Made by a program: the position numbers and the translations under genes. From positions 62,001 to 126,000 of the forward strand of contig NZ_JABWRJ020000001.1 of assembly GCF_014268935.2 (NCBI RefSeq): 64,000 nucleotides of DNA. The letters run 5' to 3'. Under the pieces are notes generated by a model. It made no database searches and was not told the DNA's origin. It saw only the letters and a program-made list of their open reading frames with translations. The stretch is from Pseudomonas peradeniyensis (GTDB taxonomy: Bacteria > Pseudomonadota > Gammaproteobacteria > Pseudomonadales > Pseudomonadaceae). Below, piece after piece: positions 2,493 to 15,929 of this stretch; within the stretch, counting starts at the first letter, position 1; each line of letters starts with the position of its first letter.

Positions 2493-2825
2493 CCTGGTAT
2501 TCCTGTTGCGTTCCCTGCGTCCTCGTACGACGCGCGTCGCACTCCGTGTGCTTGCTCATTGCGAGTTGCCATTTTGACGATGCCGTTCATCCATTACAGT
2601 CCTCGCAGGTGAAGGGCTGGCAGAGCGTTTGTTACTACTAACTAAATAATGTCAAAGAACTATTTCTGGTGGTGAGTTGCTTGGCGTGTTCAGGGCATGC
2701 TGCAAAATAGTCCTACCCATCGACAAAAAACTCCTAACCCTCCGTGATTCTAGCTGACTAGGATTCACACAGGCGGCACACTAACTAACCGCCTCGGTAG
2801 ATCGATGTTATATGAGGTGCACAGA
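2493..2825. other. 333-bp divergent control region between the AraC-type gene and flp1
   Basis: No gene is supported here. The stretch from about 2625 to 2770 is more AT-rich than its surroundings. It holds the tandem operator-like repeats (listed separately), a candidate -10 (TAGGAT at 2759-2764) and the flp1 ribosome site GAGGTG at 2814-2819. The promoter of the regulator gene should also lie here, but I cannot point to a convincing one. Confidence 0.6.
2702..2740 (+). promoter_or_regulatory. Tandem operator-like repeat and promoter of flp1
   Basis: Two copies of one motif lie in direct orientation: GCAAAATAGTCCTACCC (2702-2718) and GACAAAAAACTCCTAACCC (2722-2740). Their TCCTA cores start at 2711 and 2732, exactly 21 bp apart, so they sit on the same face of the helix. 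The same pair occurs upstream of flp2. The downstream copy would overlap the -35 region of a promoter whose -10 is TAGGAT (2759-2764), as expected for an AraC-type activator acting next to RNA polymerase. The 21-bp phasing matches known AraC half-site spacing. The protein that binds is inferred. Confidence 0.7.
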
Positions 2826-3017
2826 ATGAATATTCAATCGATGAAACTGTCGGTGCTGAAATTCATCAAGGACGAAGAAGGCCTGACGATTGTGGAGTAT
2901 GCGGTAGCGGGTGGTCTGATCACCCTGGGTGCCGTCGCGGCTTTCATAACACTGGGCGGCAATGTGAGTACCGCCATCACCAGTCTCGGTTGTGCCGTTA
3001 AAGGCACCACGTGCTAG
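2826..3017 (+). CDS. flp: Flp/Fap-type pilin 1 (type IVb prepilin)
   Basis: A prepilin of 63 residues. The leader is positively charged and ends KDEEG, followed by the Flp motif LTIVEYAVAGG. TadV should cleave after the glycine, leaving E5-Y6 in a 44-residue mature pilin that is mostly one hydrophobic helix (GLITLGAVAAFITLGG). Two cysteines near the C-terminus (SLGCAVKGTTC) could form a disulfide loop. An in-frame ATG at 2805 exists, but GAGGTG at 2814-2819 is properly spaced for 2826, and flp2 has the same arrangement. The mature pilin differs from the second one at three positions. Flp subunits polymerise into the thin Tad pilus used for adhesion and biofilms. Confidence 0.95.
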   Translation: MNIQSMKLSVLKFIKDEEGLTIVEYAVAGGLITLGAVAAFITLGGNVSTAITSLGCAVKGTTC

Positions 3018-3036
3018 GCAGTCCACGTGCGTTTTC

Positions 3037-3066
3037 GGCCCCGTCGTGAGCATTCGCAGCGGGGCC
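3037..3066 (+). terminator. Hairpin after flp1, possible terminator or mRNA stabiliser
   Basis: The arms GGCCCCG and CGGGGCC pair perfectly over 7 bp around a 16-nt loop, 20 bases after the flp1 stop codon. There is no run of T after it, so it is not a standard intrinsic terminator. It could separate high-level flp1 message from the downstream genes, which have their own promoter. Confidence 0.4.
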
Positions 3067-3504
3067 TGATAAGGAGGAACCACGGGGCACCCGAGGGATG
3101 CGTCGTGGGGACAAAAGCGCATCATGGATAGACTCTGCCTGATTCTCCAATCACGGTCCGGTTCGGACAACGCATCAGTGTGTCTCTGCAGGCCAGAGGC
3201 ATGCGCGTACCGAGCATTCAAACAACCCCACCTCCTGGCAAGTCGGACTGCACTGTCGCGATTGCGCTCCTGAATGGTTTCTCCTCGCTGACCAGTATCG
3301 TCGCTGTACCACTTCCCAATAGATCGAATCACGATAGACACATGACCATTCTGGCCATTTCGAGGCCTATTGCTCGACAGGATGGCTTGGCGCGGTGTTT
3401 TCATCCGCTGGGTGGGGGCAGGGTAACGGGGATGAGTCATTTACGAACGCGCTGCCAAGTGTCCAGGCCGCAAGTCGCATCGTTTGTAGCGTGTGATGAC
3501 AGGG

Positions 3505-3543
3505 GCAAAAAACTCCTAGCGATCAGCAAAAAACTCCTAACCC
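3505..3543 (+). promoter_or_regulatory. Tandem operator-like repeat and promoter of flp2
   Basis: Two direct copies, GCAAAAAACTCCTAGCG (from 3505) and GCAAAAAACTCCTAACCC (3526-3543), have TCCTA cores at 3514 and 3535, again 21 bp apart. Compared with the flp1 pair, the offset of the core (803 bp) equals the offset of the shared CTGACTA (2754-2760 and 3557-3563), so core, candidate -10 (TACTGT, 3562-3567) and their 27-bp spacing are all conserved. The stop of the repeat to the ATG is 83 bases here and 86 at flp1. The promoter was probably duplicated with its gene and then kept under selection. Confidence 0.72.
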
Positions 3544-3625
3544 CAAGGGTGCACTTCTGACTACTGTTCAACTCAACAACACGGCAAGTGTTGCTCGATA
3601 ACAAACATTGTGTGAGGTGAGCGAA

Positions 3626-3817
3626 ATGAAACTGCAATCAATTAAAACTTCTGTTGCGAAGTTCATCAAAGACGAAGATGGCCTGACCATCGTGGAGTAT
3701 GCCGTCGCCGGTGGGCTGATCACGCTGGGTGCCGTTGCGGCGTTCATCACCCTGGGCGGCAACGTGAAAACCGCCATTACCAGCCTGGGCTGCGCTGTCC
3801 AGGGCAAGACTTGCTGA
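3626..3817 (+). CDS. flp: Flp/Fap-type pilin 2 (type IVb prepilin)
   Basis: A prepilin of 63 residues with leader ending KDEDG and mature sequence starting LTIVEYAVAGG. The mature part is identical to pilin 1 at 41 of 44 positions (changes S to K, K to Q and T to K, all near the C-terminus) and keeps both C-terminal cysteines. The leaders differ more than the mature chains. The ATG at 3626 follows GAGGTGAG, as at flp1. It is the first gene of the tad operon proper, 29 bases before tadV. Whether both pilins enter one fibre or are made under different conditions cannot be told from sequence. Confidence 0.95.
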   Translation: MKLQSIKTSVAKFIKDEDGLTIVEYAVAGGLITLGAVAAFITLGGNVKTAITSLGCAVQGKTC

Positions 3818-3846: not shown

Positions 3847-4365
3847 ATGGGCATCGAGCAGTCGATCGTCATTGCAACGTTGCTGGGGCTGCTGGGTACT
3901 GCGGTGCTGAGCGATCTGCGCTGGCACCGTATCCCTAACTTTTTGGTACTGCTTGGCCTTGCCCTGGGCTTGACCAGCCAGGTCTCCATTCTGGGCGCCC
4001 TTGGCTTGGGCCACTGGGCCTTGGGCATGACGATCGGCTTTGCCATATTCCTGCCGATGTATGCCTTTGGCGGGATGGCCGCCGGTGACGTCAAGCTCAT
4101 GGCCATGGTCGGTGCCTTTCTCACCCCGCACGACGCCCTGTGGGCCGCGCTTTTCAGCCTGATTGCCGGTGCGCTTTGCGGACTCTTGATCGTCCTTGCG
4201 CGGGGGCAGGTACAGCAGACCGTGGGGCGCTACTGGTTGATGTTCAGAGCCAGGGCCTATATGGCGCCAGCGGTCGATGAGGTGGCAGGCAAGCCCTTTC
4301 CTTATTCAGTTGCGGTCTTGCTTGGCACCTTGACCAGCGTCTTCTGGCTGCCCTTCGGCCAGTAA
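3847..4365 (+). CDS. tadV: TadV/CpaA prepilin peptidase (A24 family)
   Basis: A 172-residue polytopic membrane protein, the usual size for the short A24 prepilin peptidases that lack the N-methylating domain of PilD. The two catalytic aspartates are visible in SDLRWHRIPNFL (first Asp, near residue 22) and in the GD motif of AAGDVKLMAMVGAF. It should cleave the leaders of both Flp pilins and the TadE/TadF pseudopilins after glycine at the inner face of the membrane. It lies 29 bases after flp2 behind the ribosome site GAGGG and 14 bases before the AAA+ gene. Confidence 0.93.
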   Translation: MGIEQSIVIATLLGLLGTAVLSDLRWHRIPNFLVLLGLALGLTSQVSILGALGLGHWALGMTIGFAIFLPMYAFGGMAAGDVKLMAMVGAFLTPHDALWAALFSLIAGALCGLLIVLARGQVQQTVGRYWLMFRARAYMAPAVDEVAGKPFPYSVAVLLGTLTSVFWLPFGQ

Positions 4366-4379
4366 GTCAGGAGAACACC

Positions 4380-5705
4380 ATGGACGCCGCCGACAAGAGT
4401 GACACCATTCACGACGAGCGCGAACTTGTGCAGCGCTTGGCCCCGCAGCCGCGTACCGTGCGCGAAACCGGGTTGGCGGAAAACCTGCTCGGTGACCTGG
4501 TCTGCAAGCATTTGCACGATGCAGGCGTGCTGGACATGCCCCGACTGGTGGAACGTCTGGCACTGACGGGGGCGGTGCTTGAAGAGGTCTTGACCTCGCT
4601 GCGCAAGGACGGTCGCATCGAAATACTCGGCCAGAACGGTGGCCAGACATTGCGCTATGGGTTGACCGAGCGCGGTCGCAGCGCCGCCCGCGACGCCTTG
4701 GCACGCAGCGGCTATATCGGTGCGGCGCCGTTTCCGGTCAGTCAGTACCGGGCGCTGCTCAAGGTGCAGACCATCCATCACGGCCAGATCAATGCACAGG
4801 ACATGCAGCAGGCTTTCAAAGGGGTGGTTCTGGCGCAAGGCATGCTTGATCAACTGGGCGTGGCGCTCAATTCGGGTCGCGCCATCATGATTTACGGGCC
4901 GGCGGGCACGGGCAAGACCTATGTCAGCAGCCGTCTGGCGCGCCTGTTCGATGAAGCGATCTGGGTTCCGTATGCCATTGCGGTCAACGAGTCGGTGATC
5001 GAAATCTACGACCCTCAGGTACACCGCTGCCTGGATGATCAGGATGATCAGCAGAACACCCTGCTGCTTGACGAAGGGATCGACCGGCGACTGCTTCGCT
5101 GCATGCGCCCGCTGGTGATCACCGGCGGTGAGCTGAGCATGGAGCAGTTGGATGTGCGCTACGACCCGTTCACCCGTCAGTACCAGGCGCCGTTGCAGCT
5201 CAAGGCCAGCAATGGCTTGTTCATCATCGACGACATGGGCCGGCAGCGCATGTCGCCGGCCGAGCTGCTCAACCGCTGGATCGTGCCGATGGAAGAGAAG
5301 CGCGACTTTCTCAACCTCGGCGGCGGGCGGCACTGCGAGCTGCCGTTCGACTTGGTCCTGGTGTTCTCGACCAACCTCAATCCGCTGGAGTTGGCCGATG
5401 AAGCGTTTTTGCGGCGAATTGGCTACAAGCTGCAGTTCGGCTACCTGAAACCCGAGGAATACGAGCGTATCTGGCGCCAGGAGTGCGAGCGGTTGAGTCT
5501 GGCCTTCGATCCGCGACTACTGCATTTCGCGCTGGAGGCGTTGTACGGCGCCGAGAACATGCCACTGGTGCCGTGCCATCCCCGTGACTTGCTGAGCATG
5601 GCCCTTGACCGCCAACGCTATCAGGGTGGCTCCGGGCCGCTGTCGGCGCAGGAGGTGAAGTGGGCCTGGACCAACTACTTCGTACAGTTCGACTTTCTTG
5701 GATAG
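4380..5705 (+). CDS. AAA+ ATPase with N-terminal winged-helix-like domain, Tad-locus accessory protein
   Basis: A protein of 441 residues and not one of the classical Tad/Rcp/Cpa set. Residues about 35-110 look like a winged helix (PRLVERLALTGAVLEEVLTS, then a wing ending LRYGLTERGRSAARDAL). The AAA+ module follows: Walker A GPAGTGKT at 173-180, Walker B FIIDDMG at 281-287, sensor-1-like VFSTNLNP at 328-335 and an arginine pair FLRRIG at 343-348. No membrane segment is evident. It lies between tadV and cpaB with 14- and 16-bp gaps, so it is part of the operon. MoxR-like AAA+ proteins often remodel or load partner proteins. A role in pilus assembly or its control is inferred; the exact function is unknown. 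Confidence 0.82.
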   Translation: MDAADKSDTIHDERELVQRLAPQPRTVRETGLAENLLGDLVCKHLHDAGVLDMPRLVERLALTGAVLEEVLTSLRKDGRIEILGQNGGQTLRYGLTERGRSAARDALARSGYIGAAPFPVSQYRALLKVQTIHHGQINAQDMQQAFKGVVLAQGMLDQLGVALNSGRAIMIYGPAGTGKTYVSSRLARLFDEAIWVPYAIAVNESVIEIYDPQVHRCLDDQDDQQNTLLLDEGIDRRLLRCMRPLVITGGELSMEQLDVRYDPFTRQYQAPLQLKASNGLFIIDDMGRQRMSPAELLNRWIVPMEEKRDFLNLGGGRHCELPFDLVLVFSTNLNPLELADEAFLRRIGYKLQFGYLKPEEYERIWRQECERLSLAFDPRLLHFALEALYGAENMPLVPCHPRDLLSMALDRQRYQGGSGPLSAQEVKWAWTNYFVQFDFLG

Positions 5706-5721
5706 GTGAGGAGATACCGGC

Positions 5722-6537
5722 ATGAGCTCTCGTACTTTCATCTTGATTGCCTTGTCCTTGATCCTGGGATTGGGCGCTGCGTGGATGGCCAACACCTGGC
5801 TCAGTGCCCGGCTCAACGCCAGCGCCGATGACAGTCAGCGCAATGTGGTGGTCGCCACGGTAGAGATTCCGTTCGGGCAGATGGTCGAGGCGCAGCAGGT
5901 GACGCTGGTACGCATGCCCAAGGACGCGATACCGGATGACGCCTTCGATGCCACCGAAAAGGTCGTGGGCAAGATCGCCACCTTCGCCATGCTCGGCGGC
6001 GACATCCTGCGTGGTGCGCGCCTGGCCGAGCACTTGGGCGGCAGCACGCTGTCCTCGCTGATCGAACCGAGCAAACGGGCGATCTCGGTGCGGGTTGACG
6101 ACGTGGTTGGCGTTGGTGGCTTCCTCTTGCCGGGCAACCGGGTCGATGTCCTGGCGACCAGGCAGGTCGGCGGTACCGGTAATGCCGAGTCGCGCACCAT
6201 TCTGGAGGATCTGCGCGTGCTGGCCGTGGACCAGACGGCCAGCACCGACAAAACCCAGCCAGTGGTGGTGCGTGCGGTGACCTTGGAAATGACCCCTGCC
6301 CAGGCGGAACTGCTGGTCAAGGGCATGACCGACGGCAAACTGCAGCTGGCCCTGCGCAACCCGCTCGACAACAACAAGGTGCCGGTTCCCGCCGAGCCGG
6401 TGGCGCTGGCCCAGGCTGAGCCAGTGGCGCCGGTGCCGATGGTCAAGCCCATCGTCCGTCGCAAGAGTGTGTCTGGCCCCAGCGGTATCACGGTGATTCG
6501 CGGTATCGAGGTGAATGTCGTCAACACCCAGATGTAG
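5722..6537 (+). CDS. rcpC: RcpC/CpaB Flp pilus assembly protein (SAF domain)
   Basis: A protein of 271 residues with one N-terminal signal anchor (SSRTFILIALSLILGLGAAW), a SAF/ChapFlgA-like domain (VATVEIPFGQMVEAQQVTLV and GDILRGARLAEHLGG) and a CpaB-type domain (RAISVRVDDVVGVGGFLLPGNRVDVLAT, where the first 20 residues hold the core). The family works in the periplasm with the RcpA secretin and is needed for Flp pilus biogenesis. The C-terminal 50 residues are rich in Pro and Val, probably a flexible tail. The ribosome site GTGAGGAG lies 10 bases before the ATG. Confidence 0.92.
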   Translation: MSSRTFILIALSLILGLGAAWMANTWLSARLNASADDSQRNVVVATVEIPFGQMVEAQQVTLVRMPKDAIPDDAFDATEKVVGKIATFAMLGGDILRGARLAEHLGGSTLSSLIEPSKRAISVRVDDVVGVGGFLLPGNRVDVLATRQVGGTGNAESRTILEDLRVLAVDQTASTDKTQPVVVRAVTLEMTPAQAELLVKGMTDGKLQLALRNPLDNNKVPVPAEPVALAQAEPVAPVPMVKPIVRRKSVSGPSGITVIRGIEVNVVNTQM

Positions 6538-6629
6538 CCGCCGGACGCAATCGCTGACAGCCACGCCGAGTTACCGGCGTCGTGTACCGACACCCTGCAG
6601 GACAAGGTCGGTAGCACTGGAGGGTCTGA

Positions 6630-7970
6630 ATGATGAACGCGCATATTCGACAGCCGCTGCACAGATGCCCGCGGCATCAGCGGGGCACGGCTCTCGTGCT
6701 GGTGGTGATCGCCCTGGCCGCCATCCTGTTGATGGGGGCCCTGGCGCTGGACGGTAGTCACATGCTGGTGAACAAGGCCCGGCTGCAGAATGCCGTCGAT
6801 GCCGCTGCCCTGAGCGGGGCCAAGAAACTGAGCGAGGTGTACGGTGCGACCGGCTCCGCCAGCACCACCCAAGCCGCTGCCAGGGACACGCTGGCGCGCA
6901 ATGCCAACGCCGATGGCAACCAGGAACTGGCCAAGGCCATTGGCAACGACATAAGCGGTTTCGCCACGGTGGAGCTGTCTGCCAGTGTCTACGGACCGTT
7001 CTCTTTCCCTGGCCCTGCCAATGCACGGTATGTGCGGGTGTCGGTGCCCAATTACCCGCTCAGCGGGTTCTTCTGGGGCATGTTGCAGGCGGTCGGTAAT
7101 GGCGCTGCCCCGTCCAAGGCCGTGGCGGCCGTGGCCACCGCCGGTCCCAGCCCCGCCAGTCCCTGCGACTTGACCCCGCTGCTGGTGTGTGGCGACCCAA
7201 CCAAGAACGACCCCGGCAATGGGCTGTTCTGGGGGTTTCGCTTCGGTGACCTGCAGGTGTTGAAAACGGCGGCGAACAACAGTTCGAGCATTGGCCCGGG
7301 TAATTTTCAGTTGCTTGACTTCGGTTCCGGGGGCAACACGGTCCGGGACGGACTGGCGGGAGGCATCAAGCAGTGCAACCGTGTTGGCGACAACGTGCAG
7401 ACCAAACCGGGTAACACCGTCGGCCCTTCGGCCCAAGGCCTCAATACTCGCTTCAACCAGTATACCGGCAACCTCAGCGCGGCCGACTATCCGCCAGACC
7501 TGGTGATTACGGTCAACAGCAAGTCGTTCACCTACAACGGTTCACCAGCGCAGATCCAGTACAACAACCAGTCGGTGACCTCGACCAACGGCAACCTCGC
7601 CACCGCCAGTGGTGCGTTGTACGACTACAACGACTGGGCGCAGGCCTCCGCCGATTGTGCGTCCGGCTCGGCGGGTGGTTGCCAGAGCAATGGCGCATTC
7701 GAGCGGCGGATTCTCAAGGTGGTGGTCGGTGATTGCTCCGGCAAGAACGATGGGGCCAGTTCGATTCCGGTAATGGGCTTTGGCTGTTACTTCGTGCTGC
7801 AACCGGAGTCGCAGCAGGGCGGCTCGGCGCAAATCTTCGGCCAGTTCGTCAAGCAGTGTGATGGCGACAATGTGCCCGGCCCTCATCCAGCCAGCGACAC
7901 CGGTCCGCAGATCATCCAGCTGTACAAGACCTACATCGATAACAACCAGACGCCGAGCACCGACTCCTAG
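6630..7970 (+). CDS. tadG: TadG-like pilus assembly protein (Tad domain, cysteine-rich)
   Basis: A protein of 446 residues. A short cytoplasmic N-terminus ending HQRG is followed by one membrane helix (TALVLVVIALAAILLMGALA) and LDGSHMLVNKARLQNAVDAA, the hallmark of the Tad/TadG N-terminal domain. The remaining 380 residues are predicted outside the membrane and hold several cysteine pairs (for example PCDLTPLLVCGDP, DCASGSAGGC and DCSGKN), suggesting disulfides. It lacks the glutamate at +5 of true pilins. Ninety-two bases of apparently non-coding DNA separate it from rcpC. Family members are thought to anchor the pilus or act as minor components. Confidence 0.85.
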   Translation: MMNAHIRQPLHRCPRHQRGTALVLVVIALAAILLMGALALDGSHMLVNKARLQNAVDAAALSGAKKLSEVYGATGSASTTQAAARDTLARNANADGNQELAKAIGNDISGFATVELSASVYGPFSFPGPANARYVRVSVPNYPLSGFFWGMLQAVGNGAAPSKAVAAVATAGPSPASPCDLTPLLVCGDPTKNDPGNGLFWGFRFGDLQVLKTAANNSSSIGPGNFQLLDFGSGGNTVRDGLAGGIKQCNRVGDNVQTKPGNTVGPSAQGLNTRFNQYTGNLSAADYPPDLVITVNSKSFTYNGSPAQIQYNNQSVTSTNGNLATASGALYDYNDWAQASADCASGSAGGCQSNGAFERRILKVVVGDCSGKNDGASSIPVMGFGCYFVLQPESQQGGSAQIFGQFVKQCDGDNVPGPHPASDTGPQIIQLYKTYIDNNQTPSTDS

Positions 7971-7978
7971 GAGGTCTC

Positions 7979-8449
7979 ATGGGACACCGCGGATGCAGGT
8001 CTGCGCAGGCCCAGCGAGGGCTGGCGATGGTGGAAATGGTGATCACGCTGCCGCTGCTGTTGCTGTTGTTGTTCGCCTTCGGCGAGTTCGGTCGCATGTT
8101 GTTCCAGTACAACAGCCTGATGCAGGCCAGCCGCGATGCCGGACGCTTCGTCTCCGGTCAAGCCTGGAACCCGACCCTGGGCAAGCTCTCGCTGAGTGCC
8201 GACCTCGTGTCCAAGACGCGAAGCGTCGCGGTCTACGGCGTGCCGGCCAACCCCAGCGGCTACCCGCCCGTGGTCCCGGGACTGACCACCGACAAGGTCA
8301 CGGTGCAGGCCGTGGGTACCGACCATGTCCAGGTCAGCATCAGCTACACCTTCGTGCCGGTAATCGGTAGCGCAATACCAGCGTTGTACGGCCAGAGCGT
8401 GCCGCTCGGCCTGACCTTGACCTCGACTGTGGTGATGAGGGCCTTGTGA
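7979..8449 (+). CDS. tadE: TadE-like pseudopilin
   Basis: A protein of 156 residues. The start AQRGLAMVEMVITLPLLLLL has a prepilin-like cleavage site (G before LAMVEM, with Glu at +5) and one hydrophobic helix, then the family pattern FGEFGRMLFQYNSLMQASRD. TadE and TadF are pseudopilins matured by TadV. The ribosome site is GGAGG at 7970-7974. The stop overlaps the start of the next gene (TGATG). Confidence 0.9.
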   Translation: MGHRGCRSAQAQRGLAMVEMVITLPLLLLLLFAFGEFGRMLFQYNSLMQASRDAGRFVSGQAWNPTLGKLSLSADLVSKTRSVAVYGVPANPSGYPPVVPGLTTDKVTVQAVGTDHVQVSISYTFVPVIGSAIPALYGQSVPLGLTLTSTVVMRAL

Positions 8450-8952
8450 TGAATAAGCAGCGTATGCGCGGGATGTATGTCGTTGAATTCGCCATTACCG
8501 GCCTGGTGCTGTTCACGCTGCTGTTCGGCGTGTTGGAGGTAGGCCGGTTGTATTTCACCGTCAACGCGCTCAACGAGAGCGTACGTCGTGGTGCGCGCCT
8601 GGCGGCGGTGTGCGATATCCGTGATCCGGTGATCTTGCGCCGGGCGATTTTCAATGCTGCCGACAACAGCGGCAAAAGCAGCCTGATCGGCAACCTGGCC
8701 ACCGCCAACCTCAGTCTGGTGTATCTGGACGCCAATGGCGCGGTGGTCGCCAACCCGGACGACCTCGGCAGCGCCAGCGGCTTTCGCGCTATTCGCTACA
8801 TCCAGCTGCAACTGAGCAACTTCACTTTCAACCTGCTGATTCCAGGGTTCGGTGGGGGCTTCACCCTGCCGGTGTACAGGTCGACCGTGCCGCGTGAAAG
8901 CCTCGGTCGGCAACCCGAGGCGGGCGTCACCCCGGAGATTACGCCATGCTAA
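8449..8952 (+). CDS. tadF: Second TadE/TadF-like pseudopilin
   Basis: A protein of 167 residues with the prepilin-like site MRG before MYVVEFAITGLVLFTLLFGV, where Glu is at +5, followed by LEVGRLYFTVNALNESVRRGA. The helix and the position after TadE fit the second pseudopilin of Tad loci, usually called TadF, although by sequence it could equally be called a TadE paralogue. A GTG three bases upstream is possible, but the ATG overlapping the tadE stop is the better start. The end overlaps the start of tadZ by a few bases. Confidence 0.82.
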   Translation: MNKQRMRGMYVVEFAITGLVLFTLLFGVLEVGRLYFTVNALNESVRRGARLAAVCDIRDPVILRRAIFNAADNSGKSSLIGNLATANLSLVYLDANGAVVANPDDLGSASGFRAIRYIQLQLSNFTFNLLIPGFGGGFTLPVYRSTVPRESLGRQPEAGVTPEITPC

Positions 8953-10163
8953 TGACCAAAGAAGCACCCACCACCGGTGTGACTGAGAATCCCGGTATGC
9001 ACCTGTTGATCAGTGGCCGTGACGGGGGCGCGTTGAACCAGCTCAAAGCGCTGAGCCAGTGCCTGCCCAACCTGAATGTCACCACCCGCTTGGTTAGCAA
9101 TGGCCACACCGACCCCTTGTTCGGGCTGGAGCAGATGCCTGACCTGCTGCTGCTGCGTGTCAGCCACCTGTGGCGCGAGGAACTGGCCGCATTGCTTCAG
9201 CACCCGCTCAAGGAGCGCCCACCGTTGCTGGTGTGCGGCCCCTTGGACGAGCGCGAGGGTATGCGCCTGGCAATGCAGGCTGGAGCCCGGGATTTTCTGA
9301 CCGAGCCGGTGGCCGCCGACGAACTGACGGCGGCGATCAACCGTATGGTGATGGAAGCCCATGCCGAGCAAGGCTCCGGGGGCAAGCTGGTCGCCGTGAT
9401 GAACGCCAAGGGTGGCTCAGGCGCGACCATGCTGGCCTGCAACCTGGCGCATCAACTCAGCGTGCGAGGCGGGCGTACGTTGCTGCTGGACCTGGATCTG
9501 CAGTTCGGGACGGTGGCCCACAGCCTGGATGTGTTGCCGCAGCACTGCCACATGGAGGTGCTCAAGCAGATCGATGAGCTGGACAGCATCGCCTTGCGCG
9601 GCTTTTGCAGTCACTTCAGCCCGACCCTGCATGTGCTCAGTGGCCGCGCGGGCGAGTTGTGCCTGGCCCAGGACGTTCGCCTGGAGCAGTTGGAAAGCCT
9701 GCTGCGCCTGGCGCGCAACACCTATGACTGGGTGGTGGTTGACCTGCCGCGGCAGATCGACCACCTCACGGGGGTCACGCTGGAGCAGGCCGACCGGATC
9801 TACATCGTGGTGCAACAAAGCCTCAGCCACCTCAAAGATGGCACGCGGCTGACCCACATCCTGCGCAACGACCTAGGCGTGCAAGGCAATCGCCTGAAGG
9901 TGGTGGTCAACCGCTACAACAAAGCCTCTCCCGTCAGTCTCAAGGACATCAGCGATGCCATGCGCTGCAGCAATGTGCACAAGCTGCCCAATGACTATTC
10001 GGCGGTCAACGAAAGCCAGAACACCGGCGTGCCCCTGGAGGTGCATGCGCCACGTGCTGCGGTGACTGTCAGTCTGCATGAGTTGAGCCAGGACCTGATC
10101 GGGGTCGTGGCCAGCGAGCGGGGCCTGTTTAAACGTACCTTTGGCCGTTTGTTCGGAGGGTGA
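8946..10163 (+). CDS. tadZ: TadZ/CpaE pilus localisation ATPase
   Basis: A protein of 405 residues. The first 130 or so resemble a receiver domain without the phosphate-accepting aspartate (LLLLRVSHLWREE), as is usual in TadZ. A MinD/ParA-type ATPase domain follows, with deviant Walker A NAKGGSGATMLACNLAHQ in which the second lysine is Ala, LLLDLDLQFGTV, and YDWVVVDLPRQIDHLTG as Walker B. TadZ places the Tad machine, often at a cell pole. Two ATG codons (8946 and 8952) are possible. The gene overlaps tadF and ends 3 bases before tadA, so expression is tightly coupled. Confidence 0.92.
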   Translation: MLMTKEAPTTGVTENPGMHLLISGRDGGALNQLKALSQCLPNLNVTTRLVSNGHTDPLFGLEQMPDLLLLRVSHLWREELAALLQHPLKERPPLLVCGPLDEREGMRLAMQAGARDFLTEPVAADELTAAINRMVMEAHAEQGSGGKLVAVMNAKGGSGATMLACNLAHQLSVRGGRTLLLDLDLQFGTVAHSLDVLPQHCHMEVLKQIDELDSIALRGFCSHFSPTLHVLSGRAGELCLAQDVRLEQLESLLRLARNTYDWVVVDLPRQIDHLTGVTLEQADRIYIVVQQSLSHLKDGTRLTHILRNDLGVQGNRLKVVVNRYNKASPVSLKDISDAMRCSNVHKLPNDYSAVNESQNTGVPLEVHAPRAAVTVSLHELSQDLIGVVASERGLFKRTFGRLFGG

Positions 10164-10166
10164 ACC

Positions 10167-11600
10167 ATGCTCAGCGACTTTCGTAATCGCCTGCGCCAGC
10201 AGGCCGGCAAGAGCGCCCCGGCAGACGGGCAGGGGACGCAGCCGGACAGTGCCAGCTGCGACAGCGTACTCATGGCCTGGGAGGCCGCGATACCGGATGT
10301 GCCTTACGAGACCCGGACCAAGCTCAACCAGGTGGAGACCGAGTGGCGGGAGAAGATCTATCAGTTGCTGCTCAAGGTCATGGACCTGTCATTGCTCGAC
10401 TCCCTGGAACCGGGCGACGCCTCGCGGCAGATCCGCGACATCTGCCAGCGCCTGCTCGACGAGCACTCGGCGCCGGTCAGCGCCAGCAGCCGGCAGTTGA
10501 TCATCAAGCAGATCACCGACGAAGTGCTCGGTCTCGGCCCGCTGGAGCCGTTGCTGGCCGATCACAGTGTATCGGACATTCTGGTCAACGGTGCCGACTC
10601 GGTGTACGTCGAGCGCTTTGGCAAGCTGCAACGAACCGATGTGCATTTTCGCGATAATCACCACCTGTTGAACATCATCGACCGTATTGTTTCCAGTCTG
10701 GGCCGGCGCATCGATGAGTCGTCACCACTGGTGGACGCACGGCTCAAGGATGGCTCGCGGGTCAACGCCATCATTCCGCCCTTGGCCATCGACGGGCCGA
10801 GCATGTCGATCCGGCGCTTTGCCGTGGACCTGCTCAACACCGAGAGCCTGGTGAAGATGGGCACCCTTACGCCGTCGATCGCCCTGATGCTCAAGGCCAT
10901 CGTGCGCGGGCGCATGAACGTGCTGATCTCCGGCGGGACCGGTAGCGGCAAGACCACCATGCTCAACGTGCTGTCGAGCTTCATCCCCCACAATGAGCGG
11001 ATCGTCACGATCGAGGACTCGGCCGAACTGCAACTGCAACAACCTCATGTGGTACGCCTCGAAACCCGTCCGTCGAACATCGAGGGCAAGGGCGAGGTCA
11101 GCCAGCGCGACCTGGTGCGCAACAGTTTGCGCATGCGCCCCGACCGTATCGTCATCGGTGAGGTGCGTGGCGCCGAGGCGCTGGACATGCTGACGGCGAT
11201 GAACACCGGCCACGACGGCTCGCTCACCACCATCCACGCCAACACCGCGCGCGATGCCCTGGGGCGGATCGAGAACATGGTCTCGATGACCGGTGCGACC
11301 TTCCCGATCAAGGCCCTGCGCCAACAGATCGCTTCTGCCCTGAGTGTGGTCATCCAGTTGGAGCGCCAGGAGGATGGCACGCGGCGCTTGATCAGCGTTC
11401 AGGAAATCAATGGCATGGAAGGCGAGATCATCACCATGACCGAGATTTTTTCGTTCGTGCGTAATGGTATCGGTGAACGCGGTGAAGTCCTCGGCGAGTT
11501 CCGCCCCACGGGCATGGTTCCCGCGTTCCGCGAGGTCCTGGCCAAGCGCGGCATCGAACTGCCACTGAGCCTGTTCCGGCCCGATTGGATGGAGGGATGA
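10167..11600 (+). CDS. tadA: TadA/CpaF secretion ATPase
   Basis: A 477-residue hexameric motor ATPase of the VirB11/GspE superfamily, TadA/CpaF subfamily. Visible motifs are [20 protein letters not shown] in the N-terminal domain, Walker A GGTGSGKT at 256-263, the Asp box [14 protein letters not shown], and the Walker B/His box region [18 protein letters not shown] followed by [20 protein letters not shown]. It powers both extension and retraction of Flp pili in studied systems. It is the only motor ATPase in the operon; the AAA+ protein upstream belongs to a different class. Confidence 0.96.
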
Positions 11601-11602
11601 AC

Positions 11603-12589
11603 ATGAGCCAAATTCCCAGTGAATATATTCTGGCGTTCCTTGGCATGGTGTTCACCGCCATGTTCCTGCTCAGTCAAGGTTTGGCGATCCCGGTGTTCGG
11701 TGAGGCCAATAAGGTCCGCAAGCGTATCCGTAGCCGTCTGAACGTGCTGGAGAGCAGCAGTAACCTGGCGAACATGCAGTCGGTACTGCGGCAGAAATAC
11801 CTGCGCCGGCTGTCGCCGCTGGAGGCGCGCCTGGAGCAGTTGCCGGGCATGGAGGGTCTGGCGCAGATGATCGAGCAAGCCGGGCATGAGTACCGTGCCT
11901 ATCGGGTGCTGTTGCTTGGCCTGATCCTGGCCGTGACCGCTGCGGTGGTGCTGTGGCTGTTCACTCAGCTGTGGTGGATGGCCCTTGCCGGTGGCCTGGC
12001 CACGTTCTGGCTGCCGGTGCTGAAGATCTCCCGTGACCGCAGCAAGCGTTTCGCCCAGTTCGAAGAAGGCCTGCCCGATGCGCTGGATGCGGTATGCCGC
12101 GCGCTGCGCGCCGGCCATCCATTCAACGAGACCCTGCAGTTGGTCGCCGAGGAGCATAAAGGTCCAGTCGCCCACGAGTTCGGCCTGACCTTCGCCGACA
12201 TCAACTATGGCAACGATGTACGCCGGGCCATGCTCGGCCTGCTCGAGCGCATGCCGAGCATGACCGTGATGATGCTGGTGACCACGGTGCTGATCCACCG
12301 TGAGACCGGGGGCAACCTGACCGAGGTGCTGGAGCGCCTGAGCAGCCTGATTCGTGGGCGTTTCCGTTTCCAGCGCAAGGTCAAGACGCTGTCGGCCGAG
12401 GGGCGCATGTCGGGCTGGATACTGGTTGCCGTGCCTTTCGTGTTGGCGGCGGCGATCGTGCTATCGAGCCCGAGCTATCTGCCCATGCTGCTCAGTGAAC
12501 CCCTGGGCCAGAAGCTGGTGATCGGGGCGTTCGTGGCGATGCTGATCGGGATTTTCTGGATACGCAAAATCATCCGGATTCAGGTTTGA
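11603..12589 (+). CDS. tadB: TadB inner membrane platform protein
   Basis: About 328 residues with an N-terminal helix (YILAFLGMVFTAMFLLSQG), a central helix pair (LLLGLILAVTAAVVLWLFTQ and the following segment) and a type II secretion F (GspF) domain: FEEGLPDALDAVCRALRAGH, TLVGEEHK-like LVAEEHKGPVAHEFG, and a C-terminal helix pair. TadB and TadC form the inner-membrane platform that TadA drives. Starts at 11585 (TTG) and 11597 (ATG) are also in frame; I chose 11603 because GGAGG at 11591-11595 is well spaced for it. Confidence 0.92.
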   Translation: MSQIPSEYILAFLGMVFTAMFLLSQGLAIPVFGEANKVRKRIRSRLNVLESSSNLANMQSVLRQKYLRRLSPLEARLEQLPGMEGLAQMIEQAGHEYRAYRVLLLGLILAVTAAVVLWLFTQLWWMALAGGLATFWLPVLKISRDRSKRFAQFEEGLPDALDAVCRALRAGHPFNETLQLVAEEHKGPVAHEFGLTFADINYGNDVRRAMLGLLERMPSMTVMMLVTTVLIHRETGGNLTEVLERLSSLIRGRFRFQRKVKTLSAEGRMSGWILVAVPFVLAAAIVLSSPSYLPMLLSEPLGQKLVIGAFVAMLIGIFWIRKIIRIQV

Positions 12590-12616
12590 ACACCGCCAGG
12601 TGTCAAGGAGGGGGTC

Positions 12617-13585
12617 ATGAACTATCTGCTGAGTCTGATCAACAGTGCGGTGGGGGACGAGGAGTTGGCTCGCCTGCTGTTCGCCGCAGCCATCGGCTTG
12701 AGCGTGGTACTGGCGGTGGTCACGTTGGTGTTGCTGGTGCAAGGGTTGCAAGATCCGGTACAGCGGCGCCTGCTGTTGCTCAAGCGCGGTCATGCCGGGG
12801 CTGGTTACGAGCAGCACACCACCAGCAGCCTGCAACTGCTGCTGGAACAGGTCGGCCAGCGCTTCTCGCCGACGGAGCCGACAGCCAGTTCGGCGACCCA
12901 CACACTGCTGACCCATGCTGGCTATCGCTCGCATGCGGCGGTACAGATGTACTGGGCGACTCGCCTGTTGTCGCCGTTGCTGACGGTGGGCCTGGCGTTG
13001 CTGGCCCTGCCGTTGGTTCCGACACTTTCGCTGCCTTTGGGTATTGTCATCCTGGTCACGGCGCTGGGCGTGGGATGGTTGGCACCGGCGATTTATGTCA
13101 ATGCGCGTAAACAGGCGCGGATGACCCGGTTGATGGTGGCCTTTCCCGATGCTCTGGACCTGATGGTTGTATGTGTGGAGTCGGGCCTGGCATTGCCCCA
13201 GGCGATCGAGCGGGTGTCCGAGGAAATGGCGGTCAGCCAACCGGACTTGGCCATTGAGCTGGCGCTGGTCAACGCCGAGATTCGCGCGGGGATTCCCAGC
13301 ACCGAGGCGCTCAAGCACTTGGCTGATCGGACGGGGTTGGAGGACATTCGCGGATTGGTCAGCCTGCTCGCACAGAGCATCCGTTTTGGCACCAGCGTCG
13401 GCGCCACCTTGCGCATCTATGCCGAGGAGTTTCGTGACCGGCGCACGCAAATGGCCGAGGAGAAGGCGGCAAAGATCGGTACCAAACTGGTGTTCCCGCT
13501 GATCTTCTGCCTGTGGCCAAGCTTCTTCCTGGTGGCCATCGGGCCTGCGATCGTCGGTGTGTTCAAGGTGTTCGGCAAGCTCTGA
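12617..13585 (+). CDS. tadC: TadC inner membrane platform protein
   Basis: A protein of 322 residues. It has membrane helices near residues 20-40 and 110-160, a GspF domain (FPDALDLMVVCVESGLALPQ, AIERVSEEMAVSQPDLAIEL, and DRRTQMAEEKAAKIGTKLVF) and a last helix LIFCLWPSFFLVAIGPAIVG. It is the partner of TadB in the assembly platform. The strong ribosome site AAGGAGGGGG precedes the ATG. This is the last plus-strand gene of the tad operon; a perfect 20-bp inverted repeat follows. Confidence 0.93.
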   Translation: MNYLLSLINSAVGDEELARLLFAAAIGLSVVLAVVTLVLLVQGLQDPVQRRLLLLKRGHAGAGYEQHTTSSLQLLLEQVGQRFSPTEPTASSATHTLLTHAGYRSHAAVQMYWATRLLSPLLTVGLALLALPLVPTLSLPLGIVILVTALGVGWLAPAIYVNARKQARMTRLMVAFPDALDLMVVCVESGLALPQAIERVSEEMAVSQPDLAIELALVNAEIRAGIPSTEALKHLADRTGLEDIRGLVSLLAQSIRFGTSVGATLRIYAEEFRDRRTQMAEEKAAKIGTKLVFPLIFCLWPSFFLVAIGPAIVGVFKVFGKL

Positions 13586-13603
13586 GCAAACGCCGCATAC
13601 AAA

Positions 13604-13651
13604 CCGGGCCCGGGCCTCCAGCGCGAGGAAACGCTGGAGGCCCGGGCCCGG
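13604..13651. terminator. Perfect 20-bp inverted repeat, probable bidirectional terminator
   Basis: The arms CCGGGCCCGGGCCTCCAGCG (13604-13623) and its exact reverse complement (13632-13651) enclose the 8-nt loop CGAGGAAA. It sits between the convergent tadC and DUF3613-like genes, where it can stop both transcripts. There is no clear T-tract on either side. The stem is GC-rich and does not match the REP elements of this window. Confidence 0.7.
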
Positions 13652-13663
13652 TACCGTCTGTGG

Positions 13664-13924
13664 TTACTTGCGTTGTCCGCCGGAATATTCCTTGTAGTAT
13701 TCGGGGATGGCGTGTTTGTAGCTCTCCAGCCAGCGCTGCAAGGCCAGGTCGCGCTCACTGGCTGCAGCCGTTTGCCGGATGGGCGACATGGCCTGGCCGT
13801 GAGATTGCAGCACCAGCCAGACTTCGGTTTGCTGCTGTTGCTCCGAGGAAGGGCCGGGTTCGATGGCCTGGGCTGCGAGCGGAACGAGCAACAGCCCCAG
13901 GCAACTGGCTAGGTTGTTTTTCAT
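13664..13924 (-). CDS. Small secreted DUF3613-like protein of the Tad locus
   Basis: A protein of about 86 residues with a signal peptide (MKNNLASCLGLLLVPLAAQA) followed by a charged domain holding SERDLALQRWLESYKHAIPE and YYKEYSGG, the pattern I associate with DUF3613. Its function is unknown. It is the third gene of the rcpA-tadD transcript and starts just after the tadD stop, so it is probably a small periplasmic accessory of the Flp machine. A GTG one codon upstream is also possible. Confidence 0.75.
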   Translation of the reverse strand: MKNNLASCLGLLLVPLAAQAIEPGPSSEQQQQTEVWLVLQSHGQAMSPIRQTAAASERDLALQRWLESYKHAIPEYYKEYSGGQRK

Positions 13925-13926
13925 CA

Positions 13927-14688
13927 CTACCTCTGCGTTGTTGACGGGTTGGCAACCGACGGCTCGATGGCCGTTGTGACACGATCACTGGGCACTGCCG
14001 CAGCGGTCGTCGATGCCTTGAGTTTTTCCGCACGCTCCTTGGCCTGGGTGACTTGCTCGGGGTTCAGGCCGGCACGGCTGGCCAGCTCCGAGGCTTGCTT
14101 CCAGTTGCCTTGGTAAATCAGCAGGGTCACCAGGTTGCTGGCTGCCAAGGTGTCGGACGGCTTCAGTTCCATGGCGGTGATCAGTTCGAAACGGGCTTCC
14201 TTGAGTTTCAGTTGCTTGAGGTAGACCACGCCCAGGTCGTTGCGAATCTTCTCGTCGGTGGGGGACAGACGCGCGGCGCGCTGCAAGTGTTCGAGCGCTT
14301 GCTCGGCGTCGGCGCGGGAAGTCGCCAACTGCCCCAGGCCGTGCTCGCCCTCAGCGGTCAGGCAGGTACCGAGCAAGCTGCGATACAGCGGTTCGGCCTC
14401 ACTCTGGCCAAGCATGCGATAGATCTTGGCCTTGCGCAGGCGTACTGCGGCAAGGTCGTCAGGGAGGTTCTGCAGGTTGGCCAGGCCTGCGTGCAACTTG
14501 CCGTCGCCGATCATGTCGTCGGCCATGCTCAGCGACAGCTCCTGATCGGGGGTCGGTTTGGTGCAACTGGTGCTTCCCAGGCTTGACCACCTGCCGCCCC
14601 CATCGGAGGCGCAGCCACCGAGCATCATCAATCCCAGCACCGCGATCAGTGTTTTCACCCTGTGCTCCCGCAAGGCCCTGATGCTCAT
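13927..14688 (-). CDS. tadD: TadD tetratricopeptide lipoprotein
   Basis: A protein of 253 residues. The N-terminus has a lipoprotein signal (LIAVLGLMMLGGCASDGGG) with the lipobox cysteine in LGGC. TPR repeats follow (around LGQLATSRADAEQALEHLQR, LSPTDEKIRNDLGVVYLKQL and KPSDTLAASNLVTLLIYQGN). TadD is an outer-membrane-linked TPR lipoprotein that probably helps RcpA secretin assembly, like PilF/PilW in type IVa pili. Its ATG overlaps the rcpA stop by four bases. The last 30 residues are rich in Ala, Thr and Ser and probably disordered. Confidence 0.9.
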   Translation of the reverse strand: MSIRALREHRVKTLIAVLGLMMLGGCASDGGGRWSSLGSTSCTKPTPDQELSLSMADDMIGDGKLHAGLANLQNLPDDLAAVRLRKAKIYRMLGQSEAEPLYRSLLGTCLTAEGEHGLGQLATSRADAEQALEHLQRAARLSPTDEKIRNDLGVVYLKQLKLKEARFELITAMELKPSDTLAASNLVTLLIYQGNWKQASELASRAGLNPEQVTQAKERAEKLKASTTAAAVPSDRVTTAIEPSVANPSTTQR

Positions 14689-15929
14689 TGCGACAACCCA
14701 CTGAGCCGGTCGAAGTTGCCGTCTTCGAGGAAATACATGCGGAACCAGTTCGGGTCGTAATTACGCAGGTTCTCCCCCGGCAACGACGGCAGGCGGGCAT
14801 TCGCCGCCAACGGTTGCACCAGGTGCGGGGTGACGATCATCAGCAGTTCCTTTTCCTCGCGGCTGATGGTGGAATCACGGAAGAACGCCCCCAGGACCGG
14901 AACATCGCCCAGACCTGGGAACTTGCTCACGGACGAAATGTTGCTGGTACTGATCAAACCACTGATCACGAAGCTCTCGCCGTTGGCCAGGGAAATACTG
15001 GTGTCGGTGCGACGCACGCTCAGCGCCGGTACGGTGATGCCCGCGATGCGCACGCCGTTGTTGTAGTCGAGTTCGCTGACCTCTGGCGCCACTTTCAAGG
15101 CAATACGGTCACGTCCGACGATGGTTGGCGTGAGGGTCAGGCGAATACCGAACTCCTTGTACTCGATCGAGATGGTGTCGCTGCCGCTGCTGGGCACCGG
15201 AATCGGTACCTCACCCCCGGCCAGGAAGCTCGCGCTCTGACCACTGAGTGCCACCAGGCTCGGCCGCGCCAGCGTGTAGGCGAAGCCACTGCCTTCGAGC
15301 GCATTGATCAGCCCGAGGACTTTGCCGCCGCCGATACCGATGTTGAACGTGCTGTTGTTCAGCGGGATGGCGGTAGCTGTGTTACCGAGTTGGCCGGGCG
15401 ACACGGTCACCAGCGGGACGGTGCCTGGGGAGCCGAACAGGAAGCTTCCGCCTTTGCCGAAGATCGAGGTACTGGCTTCCTTGAGCTTGGTACGGCTGAC
15501 TTCGACGAAGCGTATGTCGGTTTGCACCTGGCTGGGCAGCGAGGGATCTTCCGACGGCGGCAACGCCGTGCTCATCAGCGAGCCGGCACCCTTGCCCTGG
15601 ACGAACACCATGCTTTGGCGCGGGGCGCTGGAGCAGGCAGTCCAGACCATCAGGCTGGTGGCACCGGGAGCGATGCCGGTCAGCAGGTACGCATCATTTT
15701 TACCATAGGTCTGAACGTCGGCGACTTTCGGGTCGCCGACGGCCAGACGCGTGATGGCAACCTCAGAATTCATCACCTTCTGCATACCTTCGCCGACCTC
15801 GATCACCGCCGGCAGGGCGGACAATGCAGAGCAATTGCCGGGGGCGGCCTGGGCGATGTTCATGGACAGTCCAGTGAAGATCAACGTCCATGCAACGCGT
15901 TTGAGTACTTTCACGCAATCACTGTCCAT
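14685..15929 (-). CDS. rcpA: RcpA/CpaC outer membrane secretin
   Basis: A protein of 414 residues with a signal peptide (ending NIAQA before APGNC), a BON-like/pilus-assembly N-terminal domain (EVAITRLAVGDPKVADVQTY, then GKNDAYLLTGIAPGATSLMV) and a GspD-type secretin core: RFVEVSRTKLKEASTSIFGK, VPIPVPSSGSDTISIEYKEF, GIRLTLTPTIVGRDRIALKV and the end motif EEKELLMIVTPHLVQPL. It forms the outer-membrane channel for the Flp fibre. It runs opposite to the main operon and leads the rcpA-tadD-DUF3613 unit. I find no separate rcpB (cpaD) gene in the window. Confidence 0.95.
   Translation of the reverse strand: MDSDCVKVLKRVAWTLIFTGLSMNIAQAAPGNCSALSALPAVIEVGEGMQKVMNSEVAITRLAVGDPKVADVQTYGKNDAYLLTGIAPGATSLMVWTACSSAPRQSMVFVQGKGAGSLMSTALPPSEDPSLPSQVQTDIRFVEVSRTKLKEASTSIFGKGGSFLFGSPGTVPLVTVSPGQLGNTATAIPLNNSTFNIGIGGGKVLGLINALEGSGFAYTLARPSLVALSGQSASFLAGGEVPIPVPSSGSDTISIEYKEFGIRLTLTPTIVGRDRIALKVAPEVSELDYNNGVRIAGITVPALSVRRTDTSISLANGESFVISGLISTSNISSVSKFPGLGDVPVLGAFFRDSTISREEKELLMIVTPHLVQPLAANARLPSLPGENLRNYDPNWFRMYFLEDGNFDRLSGLSQ

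Follow-up and report, generated by a model that had tools for sequence, protein, structure and literature searches.

AraC activates the araBAD promoter of E. coli. Among Flp/Tad pili, type A, which has the PprAB system, and type B are set apart in the available text of PMC7716237. For the type-B pilus of P. ogarae F113, the accessible parts of two further papers describe a role in biofilm formation and rhizosphere colonisation (PMC10850567) and place flp-1 expression under AmrZ, FleQ and c-di-GMP (PMC9279365). In these accounts type-B pili have so far been described with global regulators only. Here we present, for the pilin genes of a type-B locus, a specific candidate regulator, an operator read at base level and a defined promoter.

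An earlier note on this DNA had put forward a dedicated pilin switch that it did not recognise from described Tad systems. That absence of a precedent has held as far as the accessible text of these papers goes, PprAB belonging to type A and AmrZ, FleQ and c-di-GMP to type B in F113. Our search of the open literature, whose scope left out most subscription papers, found no description of this regulator or operator for Tad pili. AraC is unmentioned in the available parts of PMC7716237, PMC10850567 and PMC9279365, which deal with type-B Flp/Tad; the available part of PMC10146422 mentions AraC twice, neither time for this locus, and that of PMC6713353 mentions no regulator or promoter.

Results

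The pilin genes and their tad locus

The window, that is, the whole 64-kb stretch of DNA that was analysed, carries two pilin genes on its forward strand, flp1 (2826–3017) and flp2 (3626–3817). Each encodes 63 amino acids and matches Flp_Fap below the Pfam gathering score (E 7.3e-6 and 1.3e-6, respectively). The remaining tad locus occupies 3847–15929 on both strands, with TadV, an AAA ATPase, RcpC, TadG, two TadE/F-like proteins, TadZ, TadA, TadB and TadC encoded on the forward strand and TadD and RcpA on the reverse strand. TadV, the ATPase, RcpC and TadG were named by Pfam and the others from the list of open reading frames; tblastn found the same tad gene set in the loci of relatives. The set as a whole (flp-1/flp-2, TadV, ATPase, RcpC, RcpA, TadA–G and TadZ) is that of a type-B Flp/Tad locus, an assignment made by gene content against the definition in the available text of PMC7716237 (Blanco-Romero et al. 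2020).

Several features of the locus are worth recording in their own right. Between flp1 and flp2 lies a long stretch without an assigned gene (3018–3500), and flp2 has a site of its own; many relatives with two flp genes have them about 150 bases apart, with a site before the first one only. The AAA ATPase (4380–5705), whose homologues occupy the same position in related tad loci, is weakly matched in NCBIfam by the anti-phage ATPase IteA, far under the cut-off (E 6e-6). Outside the window, the source genome (G000) holds a second, weak RcpC-like match (contig C3, about position 832626, E 3.6e-11) and a second TadA-like match, which may together mark a second, type-A-like Tad locus.

A phased pair of half-sites before each flp gene

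Direct reading bore out the earlier description of two TCCTA cores 21 bp apart before each pilin gene, at 2711/2732 for flp1 and 3514/3535 for flp2. The sequence AAACTCCTAACCC occurs exactly at 2728–2740 and 3531–3543, its end lying 86 and 83 bases before the ATGs at 2826 and 3626, and the candidate -10 hexamers, TAGGAT (2759) and TACTGT (3562), are each placed 27 bp after the proximal core; these distances are as first given. The half-sites reach further upstream than had been noted, having the form GC-N7-TCCTA, or AC-N7-TCCTA in the proximal copy of flp1. On the forward strand, the distal half-site of flp1, read directly and by alignment with relatives, spans 2702–2715 (GC-N7-TCCTA) and its proximal half-site 2723–2738 (AC-N7-TCCTAAC), the latter appearing, from the place of the -10, to overlap the -35 position. 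Direct reading places those of flp2 at 3505–3518 (GC-N7-TCCTA) and 3526–3541 (GC-N7-TCCTAAC).

The proposal was vulnerable to the motif being frequent elsewhere in the genome. The pattern TCCTA-N16-TCCTA is found at just two places in the 5.92 Mb and nine contigs of the source genome, both before flp, against 25 matches to a reversed control pattern. Single copies of the 13-mer AAACTCCTAACCC with up to three mismatches are not enriched in the 64-kb window (4 found, 6.0 expected), so the signal resides in the phased pair. A weight matrix made from 82 sites, both window sites among them, scores above -5 only at the two flp sites in the window; over the 1.52 Mb of 80 loci (the best 80 of 107 relatives) it gives 84 matches above 40, the next best reaching 15.4. 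The consensus of the 82 sites reads GCAAAAAAGTCCTAGCGAT-NN-GCAAAATCCTCCTAAC, then a more variable stretch and CTGACTAGGGT.

Promoter geometry

A set of 106 sites, taken with a relaxed distal core, was scanned for TANNNT at nine possible places. Every one of them has exactly one such hexamer, 27 bp (75 sites) or 26 bp (31 sites) after the proximal core. The base preceding it, which lay outside the search pattern, is C in all 77 distinct promoters, so that the -10 elements of the window extend over 2758–2764 (CTAGGAT, flp1) and 3561–3567 (CTACTGT, flp2) of the forward strand. A C before the -10 is a feature of sigma-S promoters, and its invariance here makes stationary-phase use of the flp promoter possible. 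The -35 is poor throughout: the best match to TTGACA 16–18 bp upstream of the -10 is 1/6 in 7 sites, 2/6 in 55, 3/6 in 41 and 4/6 in 3, and no recognisable -35 was found in the flp1 promoter. Such a promoter should need help. The position of the proximal site over the -35, which is the class II geometry, recurs in 106 of 106 sites, as judged from the place of the -10.

Two other readings of this geometry have to be weighed. TCCTAAC might itself serve an alternative (ECF-type) sigma factor as its -35, with CTGACTA as the place of the -10, the distal copy being incidental. This would suit a promoter without a normal -35, as well as the presence of AAC after TCCT in 82 of 82 proximal cores and its absence from most distal ones; yet the loci that were read preserve the distal half-site too, and in phase, and TANNNT with its invariant preceding C is compatible with sigma-70 or sigma-S. 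We regard an alternative sigma factor as highly improbable. Alternatively, the AraC-like protein could bind the sites and repress flp by blocking the -35, with expression following upon relief, as the likely overlap of the proximal site with that position might suggest. Against repression, a -35 match of four in six in only 3 of 106 sites suggests a promoter in need of assistance, and araBAD uses the same geometry for activation; we consider it very unlikely that the protein acts in this way.

Conservation and co-inheritance with an AraC-like gene

Relatives were gathered by searching genome contigs with the AraC-like protein encoded beside flp1, and the best 80 of 107, all titled Pseudomonas, were read. 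The exact pattern TCCTA-N16-TCCTA is present in 76 of these 80 loci, and in three more (L041, L043 and L054) the phased pair departs from it at a single base of one core; in L111, which starts near a contig end, no flp match was found. The pair thus stands in all 79 flp-containing loci, where an absence of conservation before flp in relatives would have spoken against an operator. Within 250 bases upstream of 128 flp places in the 80 loci, TCCTA pairs are spaced by 21 bp in 80 cases, and any other spacing occurs at most twice. Many second flp genes of relatives have no site of their own; two sites each are found in the window, L033, L034, L035, L038, L112 and L154, and L126 also counts two, one of them without a recognised flp start behind it. 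The phased pair before flp is a real, deeply conserved and single-purpose candidate operator.

We then turned to a sample of 298 genomes of the genus, some of whose species were also among the loci that supplied the pattern. With at most one mismatch, the phased pattern occurs at 60 sites in 55 genomes (control pattern, one match). An orthologue of the AraC-like protein (E < 1e-90) is encoded in 59 genomes, a sixtieth (G280) having a 33% identical paralogue only, and all 55 motif genomes fall within these 59. The other four (G143, G244, G308 and G242) have a phased pair before flp with a diverged distal core, for example GCAAAAAACTACCAG. The genomes with strong RcpC and with strong TadA are the same 59, so the pair, diverged in four cases, precedes flp in 59 of 59 type-B tad genomes. 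A Fisher test on the co-occurrence of site and gene over the 298 genomes was made without correction for phylogeny. The close form of the site (at most one mismatch), which also misses the four diverged pairs, is absent from the other 239 genomes; in 164 of these the only TadA matches are more distant ones (E 1.7e-142 or weaker), presumably belonging to type A or another system, which ties the site to type-B-like tad and not to tad at large. The type-B locus as a whole is a confounder here: none that lacked the AraC gene turned up, and so loss could not be used to tell gene and site apart.

All but one of the 60 sites of the genus sample are no more than 1.5 kb from the AraC-like gene. The sixtieth, in G203 (L127, 4580–4900), consists of an operator, a -10 and a hairpin without an flp gene. 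We considered it as a new target and set it aside, since ATPase and RcpC remnants and transposase-like genes, recognised by eye, make it in our judgement a decayed tad copy; tblastn at E 1e-3 found no tad protein there.

The same distribution bears on the possibility that the tandem is bound by a global biofilm regulator, AmrZ or FleQ, and not by an AraC-like protein. According to the available text of PMC9279365, AmrZ, FleQ and c-di-GMP govern flp-1 expression in F113, and the promoter region of that gene is reported to hold an AmrZ site. AmrZ is, however, described as conserved across pseudomonads (PMC10146422, in the part available), and the 239 genomes without the AraC gene are all devoid of the site in its close form. 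For a global regulator one would moreover expect further targets that carry the site; of the 60 sites, 59 are next to the AraC-like gene. We regard binding of the tandem by AmrZ or FleQ as very improbable; either may act elsewhere in the same flp promoter. PprB was also considered as the binder and rejected, its putative site in the pprB promoter, GGCTAATAC (PMC6821963, available part), being unlike the flp site.

Both repeats also contain CAAAA(A) tracts, 21 bp apart, which could bend DNA unaided. The repeats might be phased A-tracts, two helical turns apart, that work as an UP-like or bent-DNA element and need no specific protein. In one clade, though, the TCCTA/TCCTAAC cores are the steadier part: other letters (ATTGAG, AACGGAG) stand in place of the tracts and the proximal core is kept. 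Distal cores do vary in some clades. Bending alone would also leave the co-inheritance with a DNA-binding gene unexplained, and we consider it very unlikely to be the function of the repeats.

The pair beyond close linkage and beyond the genus

In a wider family sample of 248 genomes, 44 encode an orthologue of the AraC-like protein (E < 1e-70) and 41, every one of them among the 44, have strong RcpC. The flp promoter was read in 15 of the 44, and each of the 15 shows the phased pair, in some cases with altered cores. In six of them, from one genus (L135–L140), the AraC gene and flp are at opposite ends of the tad locus, 13–15 kb apart, and the pair is kept; in G334 the gene is on another contig and the pair still stands before flp; and in G242, from the genus sample, a diverged pair is kept 11 kb from the gene. 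The persistence of the pair at such distances, or across contigs, indicates more than linkage.

A 21-bp repeat of the same kind is found at greater divergence. A genome of another family (G054) encodes an AraC-like protein 39% identical over residues 54–288. About 100 bp before its flp gene there are two repeats of 18 bases, spaced by 21 bp and containing TGCAAAATAGT and TGCAACAAAGT; the pattern repeated there is TGCAAxAxAGT. These repeats are below detection by the weight matrix, and a -10 at the usual distance was not seen. The matrix missed L149 and L155, where direct reading found a phased pair and a related 21-bp repeat, respectively. In one genus (L143, L149–L153) the regulator has S194 and R241 in its DNA-binding helices, and in the site the third base before the proximal core is G; elsewhere in the compared set that G occurs only in L058 and L095, both without S194. 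The correlation between S194 and G comes from one clade, perhaps from one event, and is no more than suggestive.

Three of the 44 genomes have the AraC orthologue without strong RcpC. One of them, G501, still has other tad genes at the locus; the other two, G342 and G375, have orthologues of 47–48% identity, with no site scoring 15 or more within 12–13 kb around the gene. The 47–48% orthologues in genomes without strong RcpC (loci L141 and L142) are either relics or proteins with another target. For the orphan in L142 (47%), tad genes were not found and the neighbours resemble, by eye, ordinary metabolic and regulatory genes. Paralogues of 33–36% identity that match both parts of the AraC-like protein occur in L128–L133, L146 and L147, with no tad genes in the stretch around them.

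The AraC-like regulator

The AraC-family gene reported to adjoin flp1 is indeed there, at 1614–2492 on the reverse strand. It encodes 292 amino acids, and Pfam, an AlphaFold2 model and its co-occurrence with the sites make the product the proposed binder. A C-terminal DNA-binding domain of the AraC type, which has two helix-turn-helix motifs, is present at residues 185–263 (HTH_18, E 1.4e-24, above the gathering score). The best NCBIfam matches, PocR and AraC, cover the DNA-binding part, and the best sequence matches in the PDB are 12aw_A (residues 54–268) and, second, the AraC domain 2k9s. Response_reg matches weakly (E 3.3e-5; score 24.5, below the gathering score of 30.2). In the AlphaFold2 model, built with 35 sequences (mean pLDDT 78.5), residues 10–137 form the alternating strands and helices of a receiver-like fold, joined to an AraC helix-turn-helix domain; the pTM of 0.49 leaves the relative placement of the domains uncertain. 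Fold matches to the model are AraC-type domains (the C-terminal domains of YesN and AraT) and, separately, receivers.

An equal-length Pfam match of residues 53–114 to 42–103 sets the receiver register, in which residue 60 falls at what we take to be the position of the phospho-accepting Asp and residue 110 at that of the conserved Lys. Residue 60 is His in all 35 aligned orthologues and residue 110 is Leu in at least 90% of them; more distant members have Gln or Glu at position 60. The protein thus lacks the Asp and Lys of a canonical response regulator, and its receiver-like domain probably works without ordinary phosphorylation. This is not certain, as D62, two residues away, could serve as an unusual phosphorylation site. 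Region 86–107 is nearly invariant. It is conceivable, though doubtful, that this pseudo-receiver protein senses the state of the pilus, through a ligand such as c-di-GMP or a Tad component, via its almost invariant FTVQHSEELAVWAMR..VWEY stretch, and so couples assembly to pilin transcription, as one of a family of regulators with paralogues outside tad loci.

A hairpin in the flp leader

A hairpin AGGCGG...CCGCCT can be drawn on the forward strand at 2771–2794, where the flp1 mRNA is predicted to begin. The flp2 leader, by direct reading, has CAACAC-ggcaa-GTGTTG at 3577–3593, with covariation across the family. Among 48 distinct leaders, all six named stem pairs show changes on both sides (as many in 4 of 500 shuffles), with 33 both-side-changed cells against 12.4 in shuffles (as high in none of 500); evidence from further pair types is weaker (32 of 500). 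Pairing cells amount to 86.6%, against 24.9–75.8% when the stem is slid, a comparison that favours the stem because it was drawn from the same sequences. RNAalifold recovers five of the stem pairs on its own. The mRNA strand shows 31 G-U pairs; A-C/C-A cells, equivalent to G-U on the opposite strand, amount to 10. This excess favours an RNA hairpin over a DNA palindrome. A 5'-terminal hairpin slows mRNA decay in the case of ompA, and by analogy the flp leader hairpin is possibly an mRNA stabiliser.

Discussion

We propose that the AraC-like protein has its operator in the phased pair and would activate flp as a class II activator, and we put the probability of this reading, drawn from comparative sequence evidence, at about 0.8. 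The protein, as a dimer or as two monomers, would occupy two direct GC-N7-TCCTA half-sites whose spacing of 21 bp, two helical turns, would set them on one face of the DNA. From the proximal half-site, over the place of the -35, it would recruit RNA polymerase to a promoter with a CTANNNT -10 and no -35, and a signal would reach it via the receiver-like domain, probably without ordinary phosphorylation. The phased pair would then very probably be an on-switch for a surface-attachment pilus. The targets seen are type-B Flp pilin promoters only, which argues for a dedicated pilin activator. The earlier term 'dedicated pilin switch' stands in its first half, with 59 of 60 sites beside the AraC-like gene; that the device is a bistable switch is unsupported.

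With a candidate regulator and operator in hand, pilin expression can be put to a direct test in plant-beneficial strains. The sites and proteins also form a large natural set of variants of an AraC-type operator, material for studying how a regulator and its site change together.

The proposed regulator would be of a known kind, an AraC-type class II activator; what is new is its pilin target, its receiver-like sensing domain and the leader hairpin. The araI query used for comparison matches 5334 of 5426 E. coli genomes and lies between araB and araC in MG1655. From GC to GC, araI1 and araI2 are 21 bp apart, as are the flp pairs, and the proximal GC lies 35 bp from the -10 at araBAD and 35–36 bp at flp. 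The AraC-type half-site spacing first suggested for flp is thus matched by araI1-I2 and araBAD to within one base, in spacing and in -10 distance. The DNA-binding domains of the two regulators are related. The half-sites differ in part: GC-N7-TCC is found only in I1 of araI, I2 having ACC, whereas it occurs in both half-sites of 78 of 106 flp pairs and in at least one of all 106, the proximal TCC being required by selection. In the window the joint pattern occurs once, before flp2, the proximal half-site of flp1 starting with AC. The second box is TCCTA(AC) at flp, as against TCCATA in I1 and ACCTGA in I2. AraC has an N-terminal arabinose-binding domain, in contrast to the receiver-like domain here, and the flp targets are pilins. 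A half-site pattern like that of AraC also agrees with the available text of PMC4514859.

Response regulators of the YesN/AraT type share the domain order and folds, a receiver followed by an AraC domain, but the candidate flp regulator has His for the phospho-Asp and Leu, in at least 90% of orthologues, for the Lys. PprA-PprB, for the type-A Flp/Tad of P. aeruginosa, is a dedicated flp regulator, as the AraC-like protein would be, of another protein type and for another pilus type. The AmrZ-FleQ-c-di-GMP system of P. ogarae F113 acts on what is by description the same pilus type and the same gene, through regulators that are global.
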